From: Pseudomonas mendocina
Lineage (GTDB): Bacteria > Pseudomonadota > Gammaproteobacteria > Pseudomonadales > Pseudomonadaceae
DNA length: 64,000 nt
Direction: 5' to 3'
Assembly: GCF_900636545.1 (NCBI RefSeq)
Contig: NZ_LR134290.1
Coordinates: forward strand, 1,736,001-1,800,000
In this document: positions 34,820 through 41,692 of the stretch, piece by piece
Position numbering within the stretch: position 1 is the first letter of the stretch
How the letters are laid out: each line of letters begins with the position of its first letter
Position numbers and translations under genes: made by a program
The notes under the pieces: generated by a model
Seen by the model: only the letters and a program-made list of their open reading frames with translations
Databases searched by the model: none
Told to the model about the DNA's origin: nothing

Positions 34820-35422
34820 ATGTCCGATTCCGATCTCTTGGGCCGCCTGCTCGCCGGTGAGCAGAAGGCCTACCGCGAGCTGGTCGCGCGTTACCAGGGC
34901 GCGATGCGCGCGGTGGCCTACGCCATCGTCGGTAGCCGCCACGCCGACGAGGTGGTGCAGGATGCCTGGCTCGCCGTGGTGCGCAGCCTGGCAGGTTTTC
35001 AAGGCCGCGCCAGCCTCAAGACCTGGCTGCTGACCATCACCGCCAACACCGCCAAGACCCGCCTCAAACACAACCGCCGCGAGCTGCTGCTTGACGACCT
35101 GCCCGCGCCCCACGGCACGGTGGGTGACGAGCGCTTCGCCGATGACGGCCACTGGCTGCTGGCACCCCATGCCTGGCATCAGGACAGCCCCGAAGCCCTG
35201 CTCACCGAGGACGAACTGCGCCAGTGTCTGGAACACACGCTGGCCAGCCTGTCCGAGCTGCAGGCCAGCGTGCTGGTGCTGCGTGAGCGTCAGGGGCTGG
35301 AGTTGGAGGCGATCTGTAATCTTCTCGACATCTCCCTCTCCAATGCCCGTGTGCTGCTGCACCGGGCACGCCTGAAAGTCTTCGCCACCCTGGAACATTT
35401 CGAGGAGACAGGCCAATGCTGA
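34820..35422 (+). CDS. ECF-type RNA polymerase sigma factor
   Basis: 200 aa. Region 2 (KAYRELVARYQGAMRAVAYA ... HADEVVQDAWLAVVRSL) and region 4 (LASLSELQASVLVLRERQGL then LDISLSNARVLLHRARLKV) are clear, joined by a ~50-residue linker containing DDLPAPHG. Overlaps the zinc-finger gene by 7 nt. Synteny with PA3285, as I recall it, places it upstream of the DUF692/hvf genes in P. aeruginosa, suggesting it controls that metal-peptide operon. Confidence 0.92.
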   Translation: MSDSDLLGRLLAGEQKAYRELVARYQGAMRAVAYAIVGSRHADEVVQDAWLAVVRSLAGFQGRASLKTWLLTITANTAKTRLKHNRRELLLDDLPAPHGTVGDERFADDGHWLLAPHAWHQDSPEALLTEDELRQCLEHTLASLSELQASVLVLRERQGLELEAICNLLDISLSNARVLLHRARLKVFATLEHFEETGQC

Positions 35423-35649
35423 CCTGCAAGGAACTGGTCGCTCACTCCAGCGATTATCTCGACGGCCAACTGACCCTGCGCCAGCGCCTGGCCGTACGCG
35501 CGCACCTGGCCATGTGCGGCAACTGCCGACGTTTTATCCGCCAGATGAAACTGACCCAGGCGGTGATCCGGCAGATGCCGGATGAGGAGTTACCCGAACT
35601 CGACGCCCTGGCCGAGCGCCTGGCGCAAGACCGGCGTAATCAGGGGTGA
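35416..35649 (+). CDS. Zinc-finger putative anti-sigma factor
   Basis: 77 aa soluble protein. Seen: H-x3-C-x2-C (His30, Cys34, Cys37) in RAHLAMCGNCRRF, the ZAS/zf-HC2 signature, plus Cys4. No membrane helix, so it would be a cytoplasmic anti-sigma that senses directly, for example redox or metal through the cysteines. Overlapping start with the ECF gene supports translational coupling and partner function. Confidence 0.85.
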   Translation: MLTCKELVAHSSDYLDGQLTLRQRLAVRAHLAMCGNCRRFIRQMKLTQAVIRQMPDEELPELDALAERLAQDRRNQG

Positions 35650-35729
35650 GCCGTGTGCTTGCTGGGATGGCTCGGCGTCGCCCTCCTGGCAAGTCACTGC
35701 GTAGGGTGGATCGGGGCGCGTAGCCGACA

Positions 35730-35769: not shown

Positions 35770-35776
35770 TGTTAGT

Positions 35777-35858
35777 GTTTCAACGCTGGTGCGCACGATA
35801 TGACAGGACGGGGTATAGGGTGCCAAATGAACTAGCTAAGCCGACTGCCGGGTTAGAC
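35777..35858 (-). other. Possible degenerate third attC site
   Basis: Directly after the stop of the 82-aa cassette gene the minus strand reads GTCTAAC, a perfect attC R'' core (RYYYAAC). A weak partner, GTTGAAA, occurs 75 nt further on. The central arms do not show the pattern of the other two sites, so the site may be truncated or the 3' edge of the array. Confidence 0.35.
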
Positions 35859-35860
35859 TT

Positions 35861-36109
35861 TTATTTTTCAATGATGAATCCGATTCCGTTACTCAACGTC
35901 ATAACCCATTCATGATCTGACCGAATTTCTTCGTTTCCCATGACCGGATATCTGCTGCACCAAGGTTCCGGTTTGATGCCCATGACTTGGCACAAATCAT
36001 GGGCTCTCGCTCGGAGCGAGCTGGGATCACCGGAAGTCATTTCAACTTCATTGGTGTAAATGTTCTCTCCATCTTCACCTCTTGTTGGGGTGGATTTTAT
36101 TAATTTCAT
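35861..36109 (-). CDS. Hypothetical protein, cassette ORF 3
   Basis: 82 aa, no recognised domain. Starts 8 nt after the GTTAG end of the attC at 36116-36191 and stops just before another core-like GTCTAAC. Sequence is soluble and charged (MKLIKSTPTRGEDGEN ... WVMTLSNGIGFIIEK) with two cysteines. Lacks its own evident promoter, as is normal for integron cassettes, relying on upstream transcription. Confidence 0.6.
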   Translation of the reverse strand: MKLIKSTPTRGEDGENIYTNEVEMTSGDPSSLRARAHDLCQVMGIKPEPWCSRYPVMGNEEIRSDHEWVMTLSNGIGFIIEK

Positions 36110-36115
36110 CTGTGC

Positions 36116-36191
36116 CTCTAACGTTTGGGTTGGGGGCGGGCTTTAGCCCGTCCCAGTAAGCGAAGCGAACGATTTGAACCACATGTTAGCC
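36116..36191 (-). other. attC recombination site 2 of the cassette array
   Basis: 76 nt. On the plus strand CTCTAAC at one end and GTTAGCC at the other are the core sites. The inner stem GGGGCGGGCT/AGCCCGTCCC has one mismatch, and the flank GCGAAGCGAACGATTTGAAC matches the usual attC half. The TAA stop of the 291-aa ORF lies within the GTTAG core. About three-quarters identical to the site at 37079. Confidence 0.72.
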
Positions 36192-37061
36192 ATTCGGTCC
36201 GTCATATTTTTGATCGAAAATCATGAATATTCGAGTATTTACTCTTTCGATCCAATCAAGAACGTTGGCCATGTTTTCATCCAAGCAATCAATTCGTTCC
36301 AGCCAGAGGCGGTACGACTCATTGCAGAATTTGAGCGTTGGACATATATACCTCACATCAGTCTCATGGTAAAACGGGTATACGGAAAATGTAGAGTCTT
36401 CGTTCTTTTGAAGGCACCAATCCATGGATTCGTTCCATGATCCATGTATGGATTCTGACATTAGTCCATAAGTGTATTTGTATAGATCCTCGTCTGTAAT
36501 TTCCTTGAATATGTCAAAGAACGTCTTACCTTGAAGCCTCCAGCGATTTCTCTTTTGTTCTGTGAAGTCGTCTTCTGAGAAGTCCTCTAGATCCATCTTT
36601 TCTTGTACGGATTTAAGCAGTCGCTTCCCGGCTTTTGTCTCAAAGAATCTAGAGCCTTCTTTTAGTTCGCGTAGTATCCTCAATCTGTCTTTGTACGAGC
36701 ACTTTCTGTAATCTTCAATTACTGCTGAACCGCTCTTTAGTAGATACTCTGCTGTTACAGCGGCCTCTATTAATGGTCGTTCGAGAATGCTTATGATTTC
36801 AGCATTATCTTTCTCATAATAAGTTACGATCTCTTTGAGGAGCTTCCATATCCTGGTTAGCAACCCCAAAATTGGAGCATCTTCCAAATTGAATCCGGTA
36901 GGATTTCGATCAAGATTCCGTATTCTAGTGATGCAGTCATAAATCTCTGCCACATCCCTAACGAAAGTGCCAGTAAATCTATTTAAATCATCAAGCGATC
37001 GTAGGCTTTTCTCTACATATGCCTCATCGTATCGACTTATGACTTTCTCTATTTCGTCCAT
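36186..37061 (-). CDS. Hypothetical protein (DUF5677-like), cassette ORF 2
   Basis: 291 aa, all-helical by composition, no signal peptide or membrane helix. The stretch IERPLIEAAVTAEYLL (as LERPLIEAAVTAEYLLKSG) and later YKYTYGLMSESIHGSW recall DUF5677, a family of unknown function often found in mobile elements and integron cassettes. Starts 18 nt after the GTTAG core of the 37079 attC and ends inside the next attC. AT-rich codon use unlike its neighbours. Function unknown; a protective or phage-related role is only speculation. Confidence 0.65.
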   Translation of the reverse strand: MDEIEKVISRYDEAYVEKSLRSLDDLNRFTGTFVRDVAEIYDCITRIRNLDRNPTGFNLEDAPILGLLTRIWKLLKEIVTYYEKDNAEIISILERPLIEAAVTAEYLLKSGSAVIEDYRKCSYKDRLRILRELKEGSRFFETKAGKRLLKSVQEKMDLEDFSEDDFTEQKRNRWRLQGKTFFDIFKEITDEDLYKYTYGLMSESIHGSWNESMDWCLQKNEDSTFSVYPFYHETDVRYICPTLKFCNESYRLWLERIDCLDENMANVLDWIERVNTRIFMIFDQKYDGPNG

Positions 37062-37078
37062 GCTTCGTACTTTTGTAT

Positions 37079-37152
37079 GGCTAACGTTTGGTTAAGGGGG
37101 CGGGCTTTATCCCGTTCCAGTGAGCGCAGCGAGCGATTTGAATTTGTTAGGG
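37079..37152 (-). other. attC recombination site 1 of the cassette array
   Basis: 74 nt between core sites GGCTAAC and GTTAGGG (plus-strand reading). Contains GGGGGCGGGCTTTATCCCG inner dyad and the flank AGCGCAGCGAGCGATTTGAA, matching the site at 36116. The TAA stop of the 174-aa ORF is inside the GTTAG core, the compact layout expected of integron cassettes. Confidence 0.73.
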
Positions 37153-37671
37153 TTGCTCACACGAGCGTATTAGCTTGTTTAGCTCTTCAATGTGTTCTGC
37201 ACATAGGTCGCAGATGGAATTTTGAGCGCTGTCAGTAGAGAAATAAAAGCTTCCGGGGCCAAAATTGAAGTTAATAGGCTCTCCAGCTTTTGGTGGGATA
37301 TAGGGTTTAGTTTCTCTAAAGCGAAAAATTACATTGTTACCAGGCGGAGGAAAATAGCCTTCATGTGCTGGATTAACTGGCTTGTAGTGAGCGGCGATTG
37401 TACGCCATCCGCCATCTGGGCCGGACTCGTAAAATTCAGGATGACTTTTCCTAAATTTTTTGACGCTCGATATTGATTCTGAATTTTGCTTGAGGTGCTC
37501 GCCGCAACTGTAGCAGGCATTAAGAAATGCACTTAACAAATAAGAAAATTCTTGCTCTGTTGCACGCCCTTCAGTTAATGGACTGCGTCCGATTTCGATT
37601 TTATCCATTAGTTTTAAGTAGAAGCATGCCTCGTCAAGCTTTTGCCTTGCATTGAGCGCGAAATTTTCCAT
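37147..37671 (-). CDS. Hypothetical protein, cassette ORF 1
   Basis: 174 aa, soluble. Helical N-terminal half (LDEACFYLKLMDKIEIGR ... SYLLSAFLNACYSCGEHL) and a C-terminal half rich in Pro/Gly/Phe, ending with CDLCAEHIEELNKLI. Cysteines are spaced like a possible metal or redox site (CYSC, CDLC). No family recognised. Its ATG lies 5 nt after a GTTAGGG core (37677-37683) that should be the R' site of an upstream attI or attC; the stop is inside attC 1. First cassette in the transcription direction. Confidence 0.62.
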   Translation of the reverse strand: MENFALNARQKLDEACFYLKLMDKIEIGRSPLTEGRATEQEFSYLLSAFLNACYSCGEHLKQNSESISSVKKFRKSHPEFYESGPDGGWRTIAAHYKPVNPAHEGYFPPPGNNVIFRFRETKPYIPPKAGEPINFNFGPGSFYFSTDSAQNSICDLCAEHIEELNKLIRSCEQP

Positions 37672-37683
37672 ACTTACCCTAAC

Positions 37684-37880
37684 AGTGATTAGATAGATGG
37701 CGGTACTAATCCGATAGTAGAGCCTTACATCTAACTCCGCACCATCTCGCTTCGCTTCGCACTAGAAAGCCTTTCCAATCATAGCCTTACCGCTGTGCCC
37801 CGGGACTCCGCTGTATTCGCTTGGCCTCCTCTTTCTGCTCCAGCATTAGGCCTGGCACACCACGCGTAGTGTCGATGACG
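37684..37880. other. Upstream flank of the cassette array, possible att remnant
   Basis: Within the 521-nt gene-free interval 37672-38192. Reading on the minus strand, a second GTTAGAT core (plus-strand ATCTAAC near 37729) with GAAGCGAAGCGAGATGG beside it suggests a degraded att site, and ATTAGGC near 37846 could be its partner. No ORF in this stretch looks real. Low-confidence interpretation. Confidence 0.35.
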
Positions 37881-38111: not shown

Positions 38112-38137
38112 TGTAACGCCCGCATCCCTGCCTCGTC
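38112..38137 (+). promoter_or_regulatory. Candidate ECF-type promoter of the hvf operon
   Basis: TGTAAC, 16 nt, then CGTC, about 55 nt upstream of the hvfA start. AAC-containing -35 and CGTC/CGTA -10 elements at this spacing are typical of ECF sigma factors, and the metal-responsive SigF regulon of Caulobacter uses a GTAACC-type -35. Inferred target of the ECF factor encoded at 34820. Confidence 0.35.
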
Positions 38138-38192
38138 CATTGCTGCGAGGGCGCCAATCCGGCGTCGTATTCGAAACTGATGGAGAGATGCC

Positions 38193-38486
38193 ATGAAACA
38201 ACTCAATACCCTGACCGCTACCCTGGGCGCTGCGCTGCTGACTTCCATGGCGTTCACTGCCCATGCCGCGAGCAACCCGTTCGCTGCGCAGGAACTGGCC
38301 AGCGGCTATAGCCTGGCCGCTGCCGAGAAAGCGCAGGAAGGTTCCTGTGGCGAAGGCAAATGCGGTGGCGAGATGAAAGCCGACGCAGAGGGCAAGTGTG
38401 GCGAGGGCAAGTGTGGTGGCGAGAAAAAAGCCGATGCCGAGGGTAAATGCGGCGAAGGCAAGTGCGGCGGCGAGAAGAGCGAGTAA
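38193..38486 (+). CDS. hvfA: HvfA/bufferin-type RiPP metallophore precursor
   Basis: 97 aa. Sec signal peptide with cleavage after TAHA (residue 25). The mature part has a short leader-like segment (ASNPFAAQELASGYSLAAAE), then a 17-residue repeat present 2.7 times, with six Cys (52, 57, 69, 74, 86, 91) in EGKCG/EGSCG contexts. EGKCG-containing precursors next to DUF692 genes are converted by MNIO enzymes, the cysteines becoming oxazolone/thioamide or thiooxazole groups that bind copper. Precedes hvfBCX as an operon. Modification of this peptide is inferred from family and neighbours. Confidence 0.85.
   Translation: MKQLNTLTATLGAALLTSMAFTAHAASNPFAAQELASGYSLAAAEKAQEGSCGEGKCGGEMKADAEGKCGEGKCGGEKKADAEGKCGEGKCGGEKSE
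38343..38485 (+). repeat. 51-bp in-frame tandem repeat in hvfA
   Basis: Almost three units of 51 nt encode the 17-residue Cys-rich repeat (CGEGKCGGE + K/M-KADAEGK). Units differ at only a few positions, including synonymous ones, so the array may change copy number and thereby the number of modified cysteines. Confidence 0.75.
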
Positions 38487-38506
38487 GGGCGAGGGGAGGA
38501 CGGATC

Positions 38507-39349
38507 ATGCACCTCGCAAACTTCATCGGCGCCGGTCTCGGCCTGCGGCGCGGGCTGCTCGCTGAGCTGATCGGCGATGACGCCAGCGGCGCCGACTTTC
38601 TCGAAGTGGCGCCGGAGAACTGGATCGGTGTCGGTGGCCGGTTGGGCAAGCAGTTGCGCGCCCTGAGCGAGCGCCGGCCGTTGCTGTGCCATGGTCTGTC
38701 CCTCAACCTCGGCGGCTTCGCGCCGCTGAACCTGGAGTTGCTGCACGCCATCAAGGGTTTTCTCGACGCGCATGGCGTGCTGGCCTACAGCGAGCATCTG
38801 TCGGCCTGTGCTGACGACGGCCAGCTGTATGACCTGATGCCGCTGCCGTTTTCCGAGGAGTCGGTGGCGCGAATTGCCGAGCGCGTGCGCGTCGTTCAGG
38901 ACGTACTGGAGCGGCCGCTGATCATCGAGAACGTCTCGGCCTATGCGCGCCTGCCCGGTGAGCTGGACGAGGCGGATTTTGTTCGCGCGGTGCTGGAGCG
39001 TGCTGATTGCCAGTTGCTGCTCGACGTCAACAACGTCTACGTCAACAGCCTGAACTTCGGCTTCGATGCCGAGGCCTACATCGCCGCGATGCCCAGCGAG
39101 CGCATCGCCTATTTGCACGTCGCCGGTCACTACGACCAGGCGGCAGACCTGAAGATCGATACCCACGGTGCGCCGGTTATCGACCCGGTGTGGGCACTGC
39201 TAAGCAGCGCTTACGCGCAGCATGGCGTGCGCCCGACGCTGCTGGAGCGTGACTTCAACTTCCCGCCGCTGGCCGAGCTGTATGCCGAGCTGGCGCATAT
39301 CCGCAGCCTGCAACAGGCTGTGCAACCGCTGAGTAGGTACGGCACATGA
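38507..39349 (+). CDS. hvfB: MNIO-type RiPP maturase (DUF692 family)
   Basis: 280 aa TIM-barrel enzyme of the multinuclear non-haem iron oxidative family (MbnB/TglH relatives). Start behind GGGGAGGA. Seen likely iron ligands: EVAPENW near residue 29, CHGLSLNLGG, YSEHLSAC, IIENVSAY, LLDVNNVYVN, LHVAGHYDQ and LERDFNF, the His/Asp/Glu set expected of DUF692. Known reaction: oxygen-dependent oxidation of cysteine in a precursor peptide. Lies 20 nt after hvfA and overlaps hvfC by 4 nt. Confidence 0.9.
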   Translation: MHLANFIGAGLGLRRGLLAELIGDDASGADFLEVAPENWIGVGGRLGKQLRALSERRPLLCHGLSLNLGGFAPLNLELLHAIKGFLDAHGVLAYSEHLSACADDGQLYDLMPLPFSEESVARIAERVRVVQDVLERPLIIENVSAYARLPGELDEADFVRAVLERADCQLLLDVNNVYVNSLNFGFDAEAYIAAMPSERIAYLHVAGHYDQAADLKIDTHGAPVIDPVWALLSSAYAQHGVRPTLLERDFNFPPLAELYAELAHIRSLQQAVQPLSRYGT

Positions 39350-40056
39350 ACGGCGTGCAATTGCAGCGCGACTTCGCTGCGCGTATTCGCCAGCCTGAGG
39401 CGCAGGCGCTATTGCCGGGCATCAGCGACGAGCGCATGGCGGTCTACGAGTCGCTGTTCTTCAACAATGTCGCCAGCCTGGTTGGCGGTGCTTTCCCCGT
39501 GCTGCGCGGGGTTCTCGGGGGCGAGCGCTGGCAGCGGCTGCTGCGCGCGTTCTTTGCCGAGCATCGGGCGAGCACGCCGTACTTTCTTGAGATCAGTCAG
39601 GAGTTCATTGCCTGGCTGCAGCAGGGCTATCGCGCCGAGCCTGACTACCCTGCGTTCATGCTGGAGCTGGCGCATTACGAGTGGGTTGAGCTGGCGCTGG
39701 ATGTCAGCGATGCGCAGTTGCCCGAGCGCGGCTGGTCGCCACTGGCCTGGCCGTTGGCCTATCGCTGGCCGGTGCAGATGATCGGTGTCGATCACTGCCC
39801 CACGCAGCCGCCGGCCGAGCCGACCTGCCTGCTGGTCTGGCGTGATCGCCAGGATCAGGTGCGCTTCATGCAGTTGGCGCCGTTCGCCTATCAGTTGGCG
39901 TTGCGCCTGCAGGCTGGTGAGCCGCCCATGCAGGCGCTGCTTGGGTTGGCCTCCGCCCATGGTCTGGCTGCCGATAGCAGCTATTTCGACAACGCTCGCG
40001 CGCTGCTGGATGACTGGCAGGAGCGCGATATCTGGTTTCCCCATTCCGAGGACTGA
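39346..40056 (+). CDS. hvfC: RiPP maturation partner protein (DUF2063 family)
   Basis: 236 aa. N-terminal domain of DUF2063 (QLQRDFAARIRQPEAQ ... RMAVYESLFFNNVASLVGGA), as found in partner proteins of DUF692 maturases such as MbnC, with a C-terminal domain of less conserved sequence. Known for partners: recognises the precursor leader and presents it to the MNIO enzyme. ATGA overlap with hvfB implies coupled translation and complex formation. Confidence 0.88.
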   Translation: MNGVQLQRDFAARIRQPEAQALLPGISDERMAVYESLFFNNVASLVGGAFPVLRGVLGGERWQRLLRAFFAEHRASTPYFLEISQEFIAWLQQGYRAEPDYPAFMLELAHYEWVELALDVSDAQLPERGWSPLAWPLAYRWPVQMIGVDHCPTQPPAEPTCLLVWRDRQDQVRFMQLAPFAYQLALRLQAGEPPMQALLGLASAHGLAADSSYFDNARALLDDWQERDIWFPHSED

Positions 40057-40061
40057 CCGCC

Positions 40062-40661
40062 ATGATCGCTTTGCTAAATCGCTTCCAGGACGCGCTGGAG
40101 GCCACCCAGCGCCTGGATTTTCTCGGCCCGCTCTTGCTGCGCCTGTATCTGGTGCCGGTGTTCTGGATGGCCGGTATGCAGAAACTGTCCGATATCGACG
40201 CCACTGCCGCCTGGTTCGGCAACCCGGACTGGGGCCTGGGCCTGCCGTTTCCCGAACTGCTGGCCTGGGCGGCGGCGCTGACCGAGGCTGGTGGCGCTAT
40301 TCTGCTGCTGTTCGGCTTTGCTGTGCGCTGGATCAGCATTCCGCTGATCGTCACCATGCTGGTGGCGATTTTCGCTGTGCACTGGCCCTATGGCTGGCAA
40401 GCAATTGCCGACCCATCGGCACCCTTTGCCAACGAGCGCGTGCTGGCGGCGGCGGAGAAGATCGAACGGGCGCGGGCGATTCTGCGCGAGCACGGCAATT
40501 ACGACTGGCTGACCGGCAGTGGCAAGTTCGTGGTGTTGAACAACGGTATTGAGTTCGCCGCCACCTACCTGGTGATGCTGGTGGCGTTGTTCTTCAGCGG
40601 GGCAGGGCGCTGGTTGAGCGTCGATTACTGGCTGGCGCGACGCTTCAGAATTTCCCGCTAA
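40062..40661 (+). CDS. hvfX: DoxX-family membrane protein of the hvf operon
   Basis: 199 aa with four predicted helices. DoxX signature FWMAGMQKLSDIDATAAWF near the N-terminus, followed by EAGGAILLLFGFAVRW and IAVHWPYGW-type stretches (seen as FAVHWPYGW). A ~45-residue loop (NERVLAAAEKIERARAIL) is inserted before the last helix. DoxX proteins accompany hvfABC operons and are thought to assist maturation or redox/copper handling in the inner membrane. Five nt after hvfC; convergent with the AraC gene with a 4-nt overlap. Confidence 0.86.
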   Translation: MIALLNRFQDALEATQRLDFLGPLLLRLYLVPVFWMAGMQKLSDIDATAAWFGNPDWGLGLPFPELLAWAAALTEAGGAILLLFGFAVRWISIPLIVTMLVAIFAVHWPYGWQAIADPSAPFANERVLAAAEKIERARAILREHGNYDWLTGSGKFVVLNNGIEFAATYLVMLVALFFSGAGRWLSVDYWLARRFRISR

Positions 40662-41692
40662 CCCAGCGGGTTATCCCGGCGCCGGCTTTCGCGAAACTCG
40701 CCCGGCGTCTGCCCGGTCCAGCTCTTGAAACTGCGGTGGAACGAGCGTGATTCGGTGAAGCCCAGGTAGCAGGCGATGTCCTGGATCGCCAGGTCGCTGC
40801 GCAGCAGGTAATGCTCGGCCAGCTCCTGGCGCAGCTCGTCGAGAATCTGCTGGTAGCTGGTGCCGGCCTGTTGCAGGTGGCGCTGCAGGGTGCGCACGGT
40901 CATGTCGAACTTCTCTGCCACCCGTTCCTTGCGCGGCAGGCCGTCCTTGAGCAGCAGGCGCAGGGCGTTCTTCACCCGGCGCGGCAGTGGCTCGTTATCG
41001 TCCAGCCCGGCCATCAGGGTCAGGGCATGTTCTTCCAGCGTGCGCAGCAGGTTGGCATCGGCCTGGCGCAGCGGCACGCCGAGGTAATCCAGCGGCACCA
41101 GCAGGGCGTTGCAGGGTTGTTCGAACAGTACCGGGCAGCCGAACAGCTGCTGGTATTCGGCCAGGTCGGTGTCGGCCGGTTGCGCATGCTCGAACCACAC
41201 TTCGCGCGGCGAATGCTCGGAGTCGGCGATCCAGCGGGCGTACAGCAGCCAGGAGGCGAGCACGTTCTCGACCATATGGCGGCGTACGTCCGGCGCCTGA
41301 TGACGGCAACTCCAGATCAGCCGCACGTGATCCTCGGCGGCTTCGAGACGGCTGGTGCCCATGTCGCCCACCAGTTTCTCGTACGGCACGATGCGGCCCA
41401 TGGCCTCACCCAGGGTGGCGCAGTTCATTGCGATGTAACCGAGCACGCTCCACGAGCCGGGCTGCACGAAACGCGCTGAGTGCAGGCCGAATAAGGGATC
41501 ACCGGAAACCTCGATCAGATGCGCCAGCAGGCGCTCATGCACCTCGCTGGGCATGCGCTTGCCGTTATCGGCCAGGTCCTGCGCGCCAATCCCGGCGGCG
41601 GCCAGCGCACGGTCGATATCCAGACCGAGCTGTTCGGCCTGGCGCAGGTATTTGAGCAGGGCTGGAACCGAGGTATAGCCGAGGTTTTCCAT
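40658..41692 (-). CDS. AraC family regulator with arabinose-binding-type N-domain
   Basis: 344 aa. N-terminal ~200 residues match the Arabinose_bd/PF12625 ligand region (ALAAAGIGAQDLADNGKRM ... PGSWSVLGYIAMNCATLGEA), C-terminal AraC domain shows VAEKFDMTVRTLQRHLQQAG and IACYLGFTESRSFHRSFKSW. Divergent from the AGPS/GlpD/FGGY operon with about 120 nt between starts, so it most likely activates that operon. Members of this subfamily respond to fatty or hydroxy acids and amino acids; ligand unknown here. Confidence 0.88.
   Translation of the reverse strand: MENLGYTSVPALLKYLRQAEQLGLDIDRALAAAGIGAQDLADNGKRMPSEVHERLLAHLIEVSGDPLFGLHSARFVQPGSWSVLGYIAMNCATLGEAMGRIVPYEKLVGDMGTSRLEAAEDHVRLIWSCRHQAPDVRRHMVENVLASWLLYARWIADSEHSPREVWFEHAQPADTDLAEYQQLFGCPVLFEQPCNALLVPLDYLGVPLRQADANLLRTLEEHALTLMAGLDDNEPLPRRVKNALRLLLKDGLPRKERVAEKFDMTVRTLQRHLQQAGTSYQQILDELRQELAEHYLLRSDLAIQDIACYLGFTESRSFHRSFKSWTGQTPGEFRESRRRDNPLG

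Follow-up and report, generated by a model that had tools for sequence, protein, structure and literature searches.

Among the closest described relatives of the operon treated here is that of Haemophilus influenzae, whose precursor peptide HvfA carries three AEGKCGEGKCG motifs with six modified cysteines, and whose modifying enzyme HvfB lost its activity when N175, D242 or H244 was changed (PMC13419390). In the same organism the sigma factor RpoE2 is inhibited by HrsE, a protein of 67 residues that has kept the zinc-binding anti-sigma (ZAS) residues. Under HOCl, strong dependence on RpoE2 was seen for each of the four genes in a cluster with doxX, COG3220 and DUF2063 members (PMC7907618). In Caulobacter, sigma-F controls a DUF2282-DUF692-DUF2063-DoxX operon from a GTAACC-N16-CGAA promoter, as seen by 5' rapid amplification of cDNA ends (RACE; PMC3511200). 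Here we describe the operon hvfA-hvfB-hvfC-hvfX in a 64,000-base stretch of Pseudomonas mendocina DNA (the window; positions 1736001-1800000 in a genome of 5,192,837 bases assembled as one contig). The cluster is a captophorin, oxazolin or Buf_EGKCG operon, one of very many already described, and what it adds to them is a prediction about regulation. We consider it very probable that this captophorin operon is transcribed from a promoter of the extracytoplasmic function (ECF) type, most likely by an upstream ECF sigma factor under ZAS control. Gene content, motifs, conservation of the promoter box and gene neighbourhood are the parts of this reading established here.

Gene content and precursor peptide

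A first-pass annotation of the window had proposed a four-gene operon, and our analysis demonstrated that it is real: hvfA, hvfB, hvfC and hvfX lie in this order on the + strand as one tight unit, with the same outer coordinates (38193-40661). hvfA (38193-38486, +) encodes an HvfA-like precursor peptide of 97 residues, hvfB (38507-39349, +) a DUF692 enzyme of the multinuclear non-heme iron-dependent oxidative (MNIO) family of 280 residues, hvfC (39346-40056, +) a DUF2063 partner protein of 236 residues with a recognition element for ribosomally made, modified peptides (RRE), and hvfX (40062-40661, +) a DoxX-family membrane protein of 199 residues. The hvfA stop codon is separated by 20 nucleotides (38487-38506) from the hvfB ATG, which is preceded by GAGGGGAGG; hvfB and hvfC overlap by 4 nucleotides, and 5 nucleotides lie between hvfC and hvfX. 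For hvfB we took the ATG at 38507 as the start, giving 280 residues; the list of open reading frames starts it at 38447.

Pfam searches assigned HvfB to MbnB_TglH_ChrH (PF05114, E 4e-97), HvfC to DUF2063 (PF09836, E 3.5e-23) together with NGO1945_C (PF22106), and HvfX to DoxX (PF07681, E 3.8e-23). The NCBIfam models agreed, with 405.2 bits for the HvfB family (NF003818, cut-off 360), 266.6 for HvfC (NF050145, cut-off 142) and 234.2 for HvfX (NF050144, cut-off 80); judged by these scores, the matches are far above chance level. Against solved structures, phmmer matched HvfB to 3BWW (E 1.5e-64), 8HCI (1.6e-17) and MbnB 7DZ9 (4.1e-9), and HvfC to 3DEE (E 1.3e-12). The family call made earlier, that of an exported EGKCG precursor with an MNIO enzyme, a DUF2063 partner and a DoxX protein, is therefore correct, the DUF2063 (PME type 1) gene lying beside the MNIO gene. 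A search of the whole genome with PF05114 returned the hvfB product alone, and no second MNIO gene was found.

The first-pass annotation had also named the absence of DUF692 metal ligands from an alignment as grounds for rejecting its call. HvfB contains SEHLS, IENVS, DVNN, LHVAGH, DTHG and LERDFNF, and its metal-site motifs align with those of the solved homologue 3BWW, so this check does not overturn the call; the residues read off are H62, E96, H97, E141, D173, N175, N176, H204, H208, D218, H220, E247 and D249. DVNN and DTHG appear to contain the counterparts of H. influenzae N175, D242 and H244, equated by motif rather than by direct alignment. In addition, R14-R15 and D249-F250 of HvfB are the same pairs as R15-R16 and D249-F250, the positions at which FonB has been studied (PMC13097082).

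The precursor appears to begin with a Sec-type signal peptide (residues 1-25, ending in AHA, as judged by eye), and the signal region is conserved in all 16 close relatives, by which we mean the genomes of the genus with an HvfB identity of at least 75%. Its six cysteines are arranged as EGSCG EGKCG / EGKCG EGKCG / EGKCG EGKCG, the repeat unit ADAEGKCGEGKCGGEKK being 17 residues long with two EGKCG motifs. Such a unit defines the first of the precursor types described (PMC12452194), and H. influenzae HvfA likewise has three double motifs and six cysteines, so the suggestion that the peptide has a repeat architecture of its own does not hold. A Pfam search with HvfA gave no match. The repeat-domain model KCGExKCG_twice (NF050137) was passed with 68.6 bits (cut-off 19.5), and the HvfA equivalog NF050188 gave 60.5 bits over its full length, below its cut-off of 95; for this reason we call the peptide HvfA-like rather than HvfA.

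The first motif has Ser or Ala in place of Lys in 16/16 close relatives (14 with EGSCG, one with EGACG, one with DGSCG), so EGSCG is not peculiar to the present peptide. At the Lys position, FonBC worked with Ala, Arg or Thr and was severely hampered by Phe and Glu; Ser is not among the residues named for that position (PMC13097082). The cysteine of EGSCG is perhaps modified by HvfB. The precursors of the close relatives have 4 to 7 cysteines, and in one relative (L017, genome G194) one of six falls in the signal peptide. The HvfB match of L017 contains one in-frame TGA, and the operon is possibly broken in that relative.

The equivalog score, the EGSCG site and the relatives with only four sites could indicate that the precursor is degenerate and that the cluster yields no mature metallophore. 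We regard this as very improbable: the frame is open, the signal region and an NPFAAQEL-SGYSLA leader are conserved in the relatives' precursors, EGKCG-type sites are kept in most of them, and the operon holds the only MNIO gene of the genome. By analogy with the family, the product is likely an exported, copper-binding peptide with cysteines converted to 5-thiooxazoles. In the cytoplasm, HvfC would deliver the precursor to HvfB, an iron enzyme that would oxidise the cysteines of EGKCG (perhaps also of EGSCG) with a change of -4 Da each, and the peptide would leave via Sec and bind copper in the periplasm, with HvfX presumably acting in the membrane. Copper buffering is thus suggested by the family, and the regulatory evidence set out below favours a part in envelope stress (oxidant or zinc) at least equally.

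HvfB relatives are widespread, at least 165 of 199 genus genomes having a match at E 0.001, and they fall into several groups, with 16 genomes at 75-100% identity and others near 57-62% and 41-48%. Judged by HvfB, the nearest among the matches listed for 80 named loci were from Pseudomonas chengduensis (98%) and P. composti (97%), in a list that may leave out records very close to the window. Of 14 loci with 58-62% identity, a scripted search showed 11 to have a precursor fused to EF-hands and L026 to have an unfused one, with no precursor found in L021 or L029; EF-hand fusions of EGKCG precursors have already been described (PMC12452194). A mobile operon was rejected as an explanation: of 72,556 plasmid records, one matched, with 74% of the query aligned at 77.4% identity.

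A conserved box, predicted to be an ECF-type promoter

The predicted ECF-type promoter, TGTAAC-N16-CGTCCA (38112-38139, +), begins 81 nucleotides 5' of the hvfA ATG. It is the sole exact match to the box pattern in the window, where shuffles lead one to expect 0.01, and the sole one in the genome. A reversed control pattern gave six matches in the genome, and its counts per genome equal or exceed those of the box; the lone exact match is therefore weak evidence, and the case rests on conservation. In an alignment of upstream sequences from the 16 close relatives, a single block was kept amid divergence, reading TGTAAC-N16-CGTCYA or a near variant. The exact box occurs in 52/199 genus genomes and is the hvf site in 10 of the 16 close relatives.

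We then counted boxes at 85 loci, searching 500 nucleotides upstream and allowing two changes in the -10 element. The box was found at 39/39 loci with HvfB identity of at least 67% (37 with at most one change) and at 2/46 below (one with at most one change), figures that are descriptive and not a test, as the 67% line was drawn after a first look at the loci. Shuffled versions of the 85 upstream regions had the box at about 0.2 loci on average and at 2 at most, and a wider region of 1300 nucleotides gave a borderline match at 4/46 box-free loci. In a set of 80 named loci compiled afterwards, some of whose species may duplicate genomes already used, the box was present at 11/12 loci with HvfB identity of at least 75% and at 2/68 below, four of the 68 being without an upstream region; the twelfth locus, from P. 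alcaligenes RU38D, reads TGTAAT-N16-CGTCTA, with one changed base. Across 21 non-redundant loci the -35 element is invariant at all six positions, and the mean top count is 19.0/21 for the -10 element, 10.4/21 for the spacer and 12.6/21 for the 40 bases that follow. The box starts 76-87 nucleotides before the start codon at 35 of the 39 loci; the shorter distances of the other four (44-58 nucleotides) probably reflect upstream ATGs.

The status of the block as a promoter is predicted, and its conservation runs on for about 20 nucleotides downstream, as might be seen if it were bound by a different kind of regulator, such as one that responds to copper. Two blocks at a fixed spacing of 16 nucleotides around a free spacer in 39/39 loci are nevertheless promoter-like, and the Caulobacter sigma-F operon provides a precedent mapped by 5' RACE, so we judge the binding-site explanation improbable. 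A consensus search found no sigma-70 promoter for the hvf operon, and terminator-like sites (2 seen, 3.4 in shuffles) were uninformative. Control by the AraC-type gene that converges on hvfX from its 3' side (40658-41692, the ends of both genes overlapping by 4 nucleotides) is unsupported; NCBIfam places this gene in a separate equivalog, GliR (669.7 bits, cut-off 570).

Relatives also contain exact boxes elsewhere. Among 29 such loci (L048-L076), six are the relatives' own hvf promoters, two precede exported-protein genes and the rest fit no clear pattern. The two (near position 1500 of L057 and of L069, from genomes G042 and G041, which both have an orthologue of the ECF gene) have the exact box 29 and 39 nucleotides before genes that we tentatively read as MsrB-like and DUF1223-like. 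They are possible further members of the regulon.

The predicted hvf mRNA would begin with a possible hairpin (38145-38168, +). An unbulged stem of at least six pairs can form in 19 of 33 unique leaders (mean 5.2 and maximum 12 in 500 mononucleotide-shuffled sets), and the types of pair change at every position with pairing preserved in many relatives. Several leaders reach just three or four pairs, and the leader sequences are related; the hairpin is a possibility that we hold lightly.

The upstream sigma factor and its candidate partner

Upstream of the operon are a beta-ketoacyl-ACP synthase III gene, an ECF sigma factor gene and a small zf-HC2 gene. The ECF factor, our candidate regulator (34820-35422, +; 200 residues), has Sigma70_r2 and Sigma70_r4_2 domains and scores above the cut-off of the TIGR02937 superfamily. 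The zf-HC2 protein, a candidate anti-sigma factor (35416-35649, +; 77 residues), matches PF13490 with 44.6 bits (cut-off 22.2) and carries C4-X25-H30-X3-C34-X2-C37, a motif also present in 13/13 relatives examined, five of them close. The ZAS motif is defined as C/H-X23-26-H-X3-C-X2-C (PMC7907618). Being small, bearing the motif and adjoining an ECF gene, the protein appears to fit the definition of a ZAS anti-sigma factor, and inhibition of the sigma factor is predicted. The sole Rfam match of our search, the small RNA P17 (39.1 bits against a gathering score of 45, E 5.2e-7), lies at 35426-35660 over the zf-HC2 coding region; this Pseudomonas family may be, at least partly, an overlooked zf-HC2 gene rather than a small RNA.

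The plasmid pPALO11 of P. aeruginosa carries, in this order, genes for synthase, sigma factor, zf-HC2, hypothetical, DUF692, DUF2063, DoxX, porin and OprP; the hypothetical protein is HvfA-like by sequence, and the hvfA of the plasmid is preceded by the box. In likening our ECF factor to PA3285 we also used the PAO1 gene order around PA3285. Together with PMC8999054, these gene orders suggest a PA3285-like factor of the ECF293 group. PA3285 is described in the accessible text as unassigned in function, with no anti-sigma partner reported (PMC3832394, 2013; PMC8999054). The parts of the ECF293 and PA3285 literature available to us gave no link to DUF692, and nothing was found in the open-licence literature that unites at least four of the five terms zf-HC2, ECF sigma factor, DUF692, TGTAAC and Pseudomonas.

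An orthologue of the ECF gene (at least 71%) is present in 38/38 box-bearing genomes and lies within 6 kb of hvfB in 29; in the later set of 12 loci it was inside the available upstream DNA in 8. Among 32 box-free genomes, six from Pseudomonadaceae, all of the EF-hand type, carry the orthologue away from the operon; in the other 26, eight have ECF matches of 38-44% and 18 have none at E 1e-30. Several results weigh against the reading as a whole, besides the equivalog score of HvfA and the frequent reversed control pattern. The 39 box loci are related, so that box and neighbourhood may share one origin. No box was found 5' of the ECF gene itself, the pattern search of the window giving the hvf match alone. 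The orthologue is not nearby in 9 of the 38 box-bearing genomes, on another contig in four (three in draft assemblies of the genus set, one in the family set) and at least 29 kb away in five. Finally, the ECF gene is far commoner than the box, occurring in 117/199 genus genomes at E 1e-40, mostly without such an operon, which indicates that the factor is not dedicated to the hvf operon everywhere.

These last two results, together with the exact boxes elsewhere in some relatives, would also suit a captophorin operon with a box recognised by a different ECF sigma factor of the cell, the ECF/zf-HC2 pair being a long-standing neighbour that plays no part in its control. A GTAAC-like -35 and a CGTC-like -10 element are common to ECF promoters of several groups, which counts in the same direction. 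The presence of the gene in every box-bearing genome, next to the operon in 29, its non-adjacent position in the six box-free Pseudomonadaceae and the Haemophilus precedent argue otherwise, and we consider reading by another factor unlikely, although clearly less so than the binding-site explanation.

We therefore return to the upstream ECF factor as the most likely one to transcribe the operon from the predicted promoter, and its ZAS neighbour would restrain it until an oxidant or the loss of zinc releases it, as conservation would suggest. ECF control of the hvf operon is likely, and its principle is already known; if it holds here, Pseudomonas would join Haemophilus, whose operon is reported to be under ECF/zinc-anti-sigma control. 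A fuller proposal, to which we give even chances, is that an orphan factor of the PA3285 kind, partnered by an overlooked zinc anti-sigma protein of 77 residues, switches the unfused captophorin operon across this Pseudomonadaceae branch. The factor would read TGTAAC-N16-CGTCYA and give an mRNA with a 5' hairpin, and the operon would be turned on when the anti-sigma protein loses zinc or is oxidised. The peptide would then belong to an envelope stress response, not to a copper-only one. From gene order and gene numbering, we take PA3282-PA3284 to be hvf genes. PA3282-PA3284 rose 4.1- to 5.0-fold in a P. aeruginosa mutant of znuA and have no Zur site on record there (PMC4542158), and PA3282 and PA3283 were lower in a mexT mutant (PMC12607905). 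If the proposal is true, the rise in the zinc-starved znuA mutant would be the work of the same switch. At this locus a PA3285-like factor thus gains candidates for its partner and its target operon, along with an exact predicted promoter.

The pair is not directly adjacent to the operon in the window because a low-G+C insert of about 2.1 kb (35771-37870, no strand assigned) lies between them, with two attC-like repeats (36112-36190 and 37075-37153), a middle of 40-46% G+C and genes that include one DUF5677. The repeats match 16 places, some partially, next to the gene for an integron integrase elsewhere in this genome (L131, G000:C1:3414000-3432000; integrase at 3421669-3422610, 488.9 bits, cut-off 265); integron-type cassettes therefore appear to sit between the zf-HC2 gene and hvfA, apart from the main array. 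The cassette bodies (36190-37073) had no match in six relatives compared (blastn E 1e-10), which have different DNA at this site or the ECF gene elsewhere. Folded as single strands, the repeats gave no z-score past -1.44. Further attC-like copies occur at the same spot in relatives L036 and L037, as in a hotspot of cassette insertion.

Comparison with described systems

Among the nearest described systems is oxazolin, from H. influenzae hvfABCX (PMC13419390; PMC13097082), which shares with the present operon the same four genes, the Sec signal (apparent here), the MNIO site motifs and three double EGKCG motifs with six cysteines. ECF/ZAS control is a further likeness, reported for the equivalent H. 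influenzae cluster (PMC7907618) and predicted here. Unlike oxazolin, the present HvfA has EGSCG as its first motif and scores below the equivalog cut-off, and its sigma and anti-sigma genes are beside the operon, whereas the Haemophilus pair is beside msrAB. The captophorins fontiphorin and gonophorin (PMC13097082) likewise have EGKCG repeats and an MNIO-PME1 pair, and the R-R and D-F residues of FonB recur in the HvfB described here; both come from other organisms, fontiphorin with seven modified sites, and the product of the present operon is predicted. Buf_EGKCG|EF-hand precursors (PMC12452194), the commonest at the loci of 58-62% identity, share the EGKCG motifs and the MNIO family but have EF-hand domains fused to them, and the TGTAAC-N16-CGTCYA box was found in 0/17 such loci. 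The Caulobacter sigma-F bufferin operon (PMC3511200) shares an ECF promoter of the GTAAC-N16 kind before precursor, DUF692, DUF2063 and DoxX genes, and differs in its DUF2282 precursor, its CGAA -10 element and its negative regulator, which is of the DUF1109 kind with six transmembrane segments, in contrast to the small zf-HC2 protein found here.

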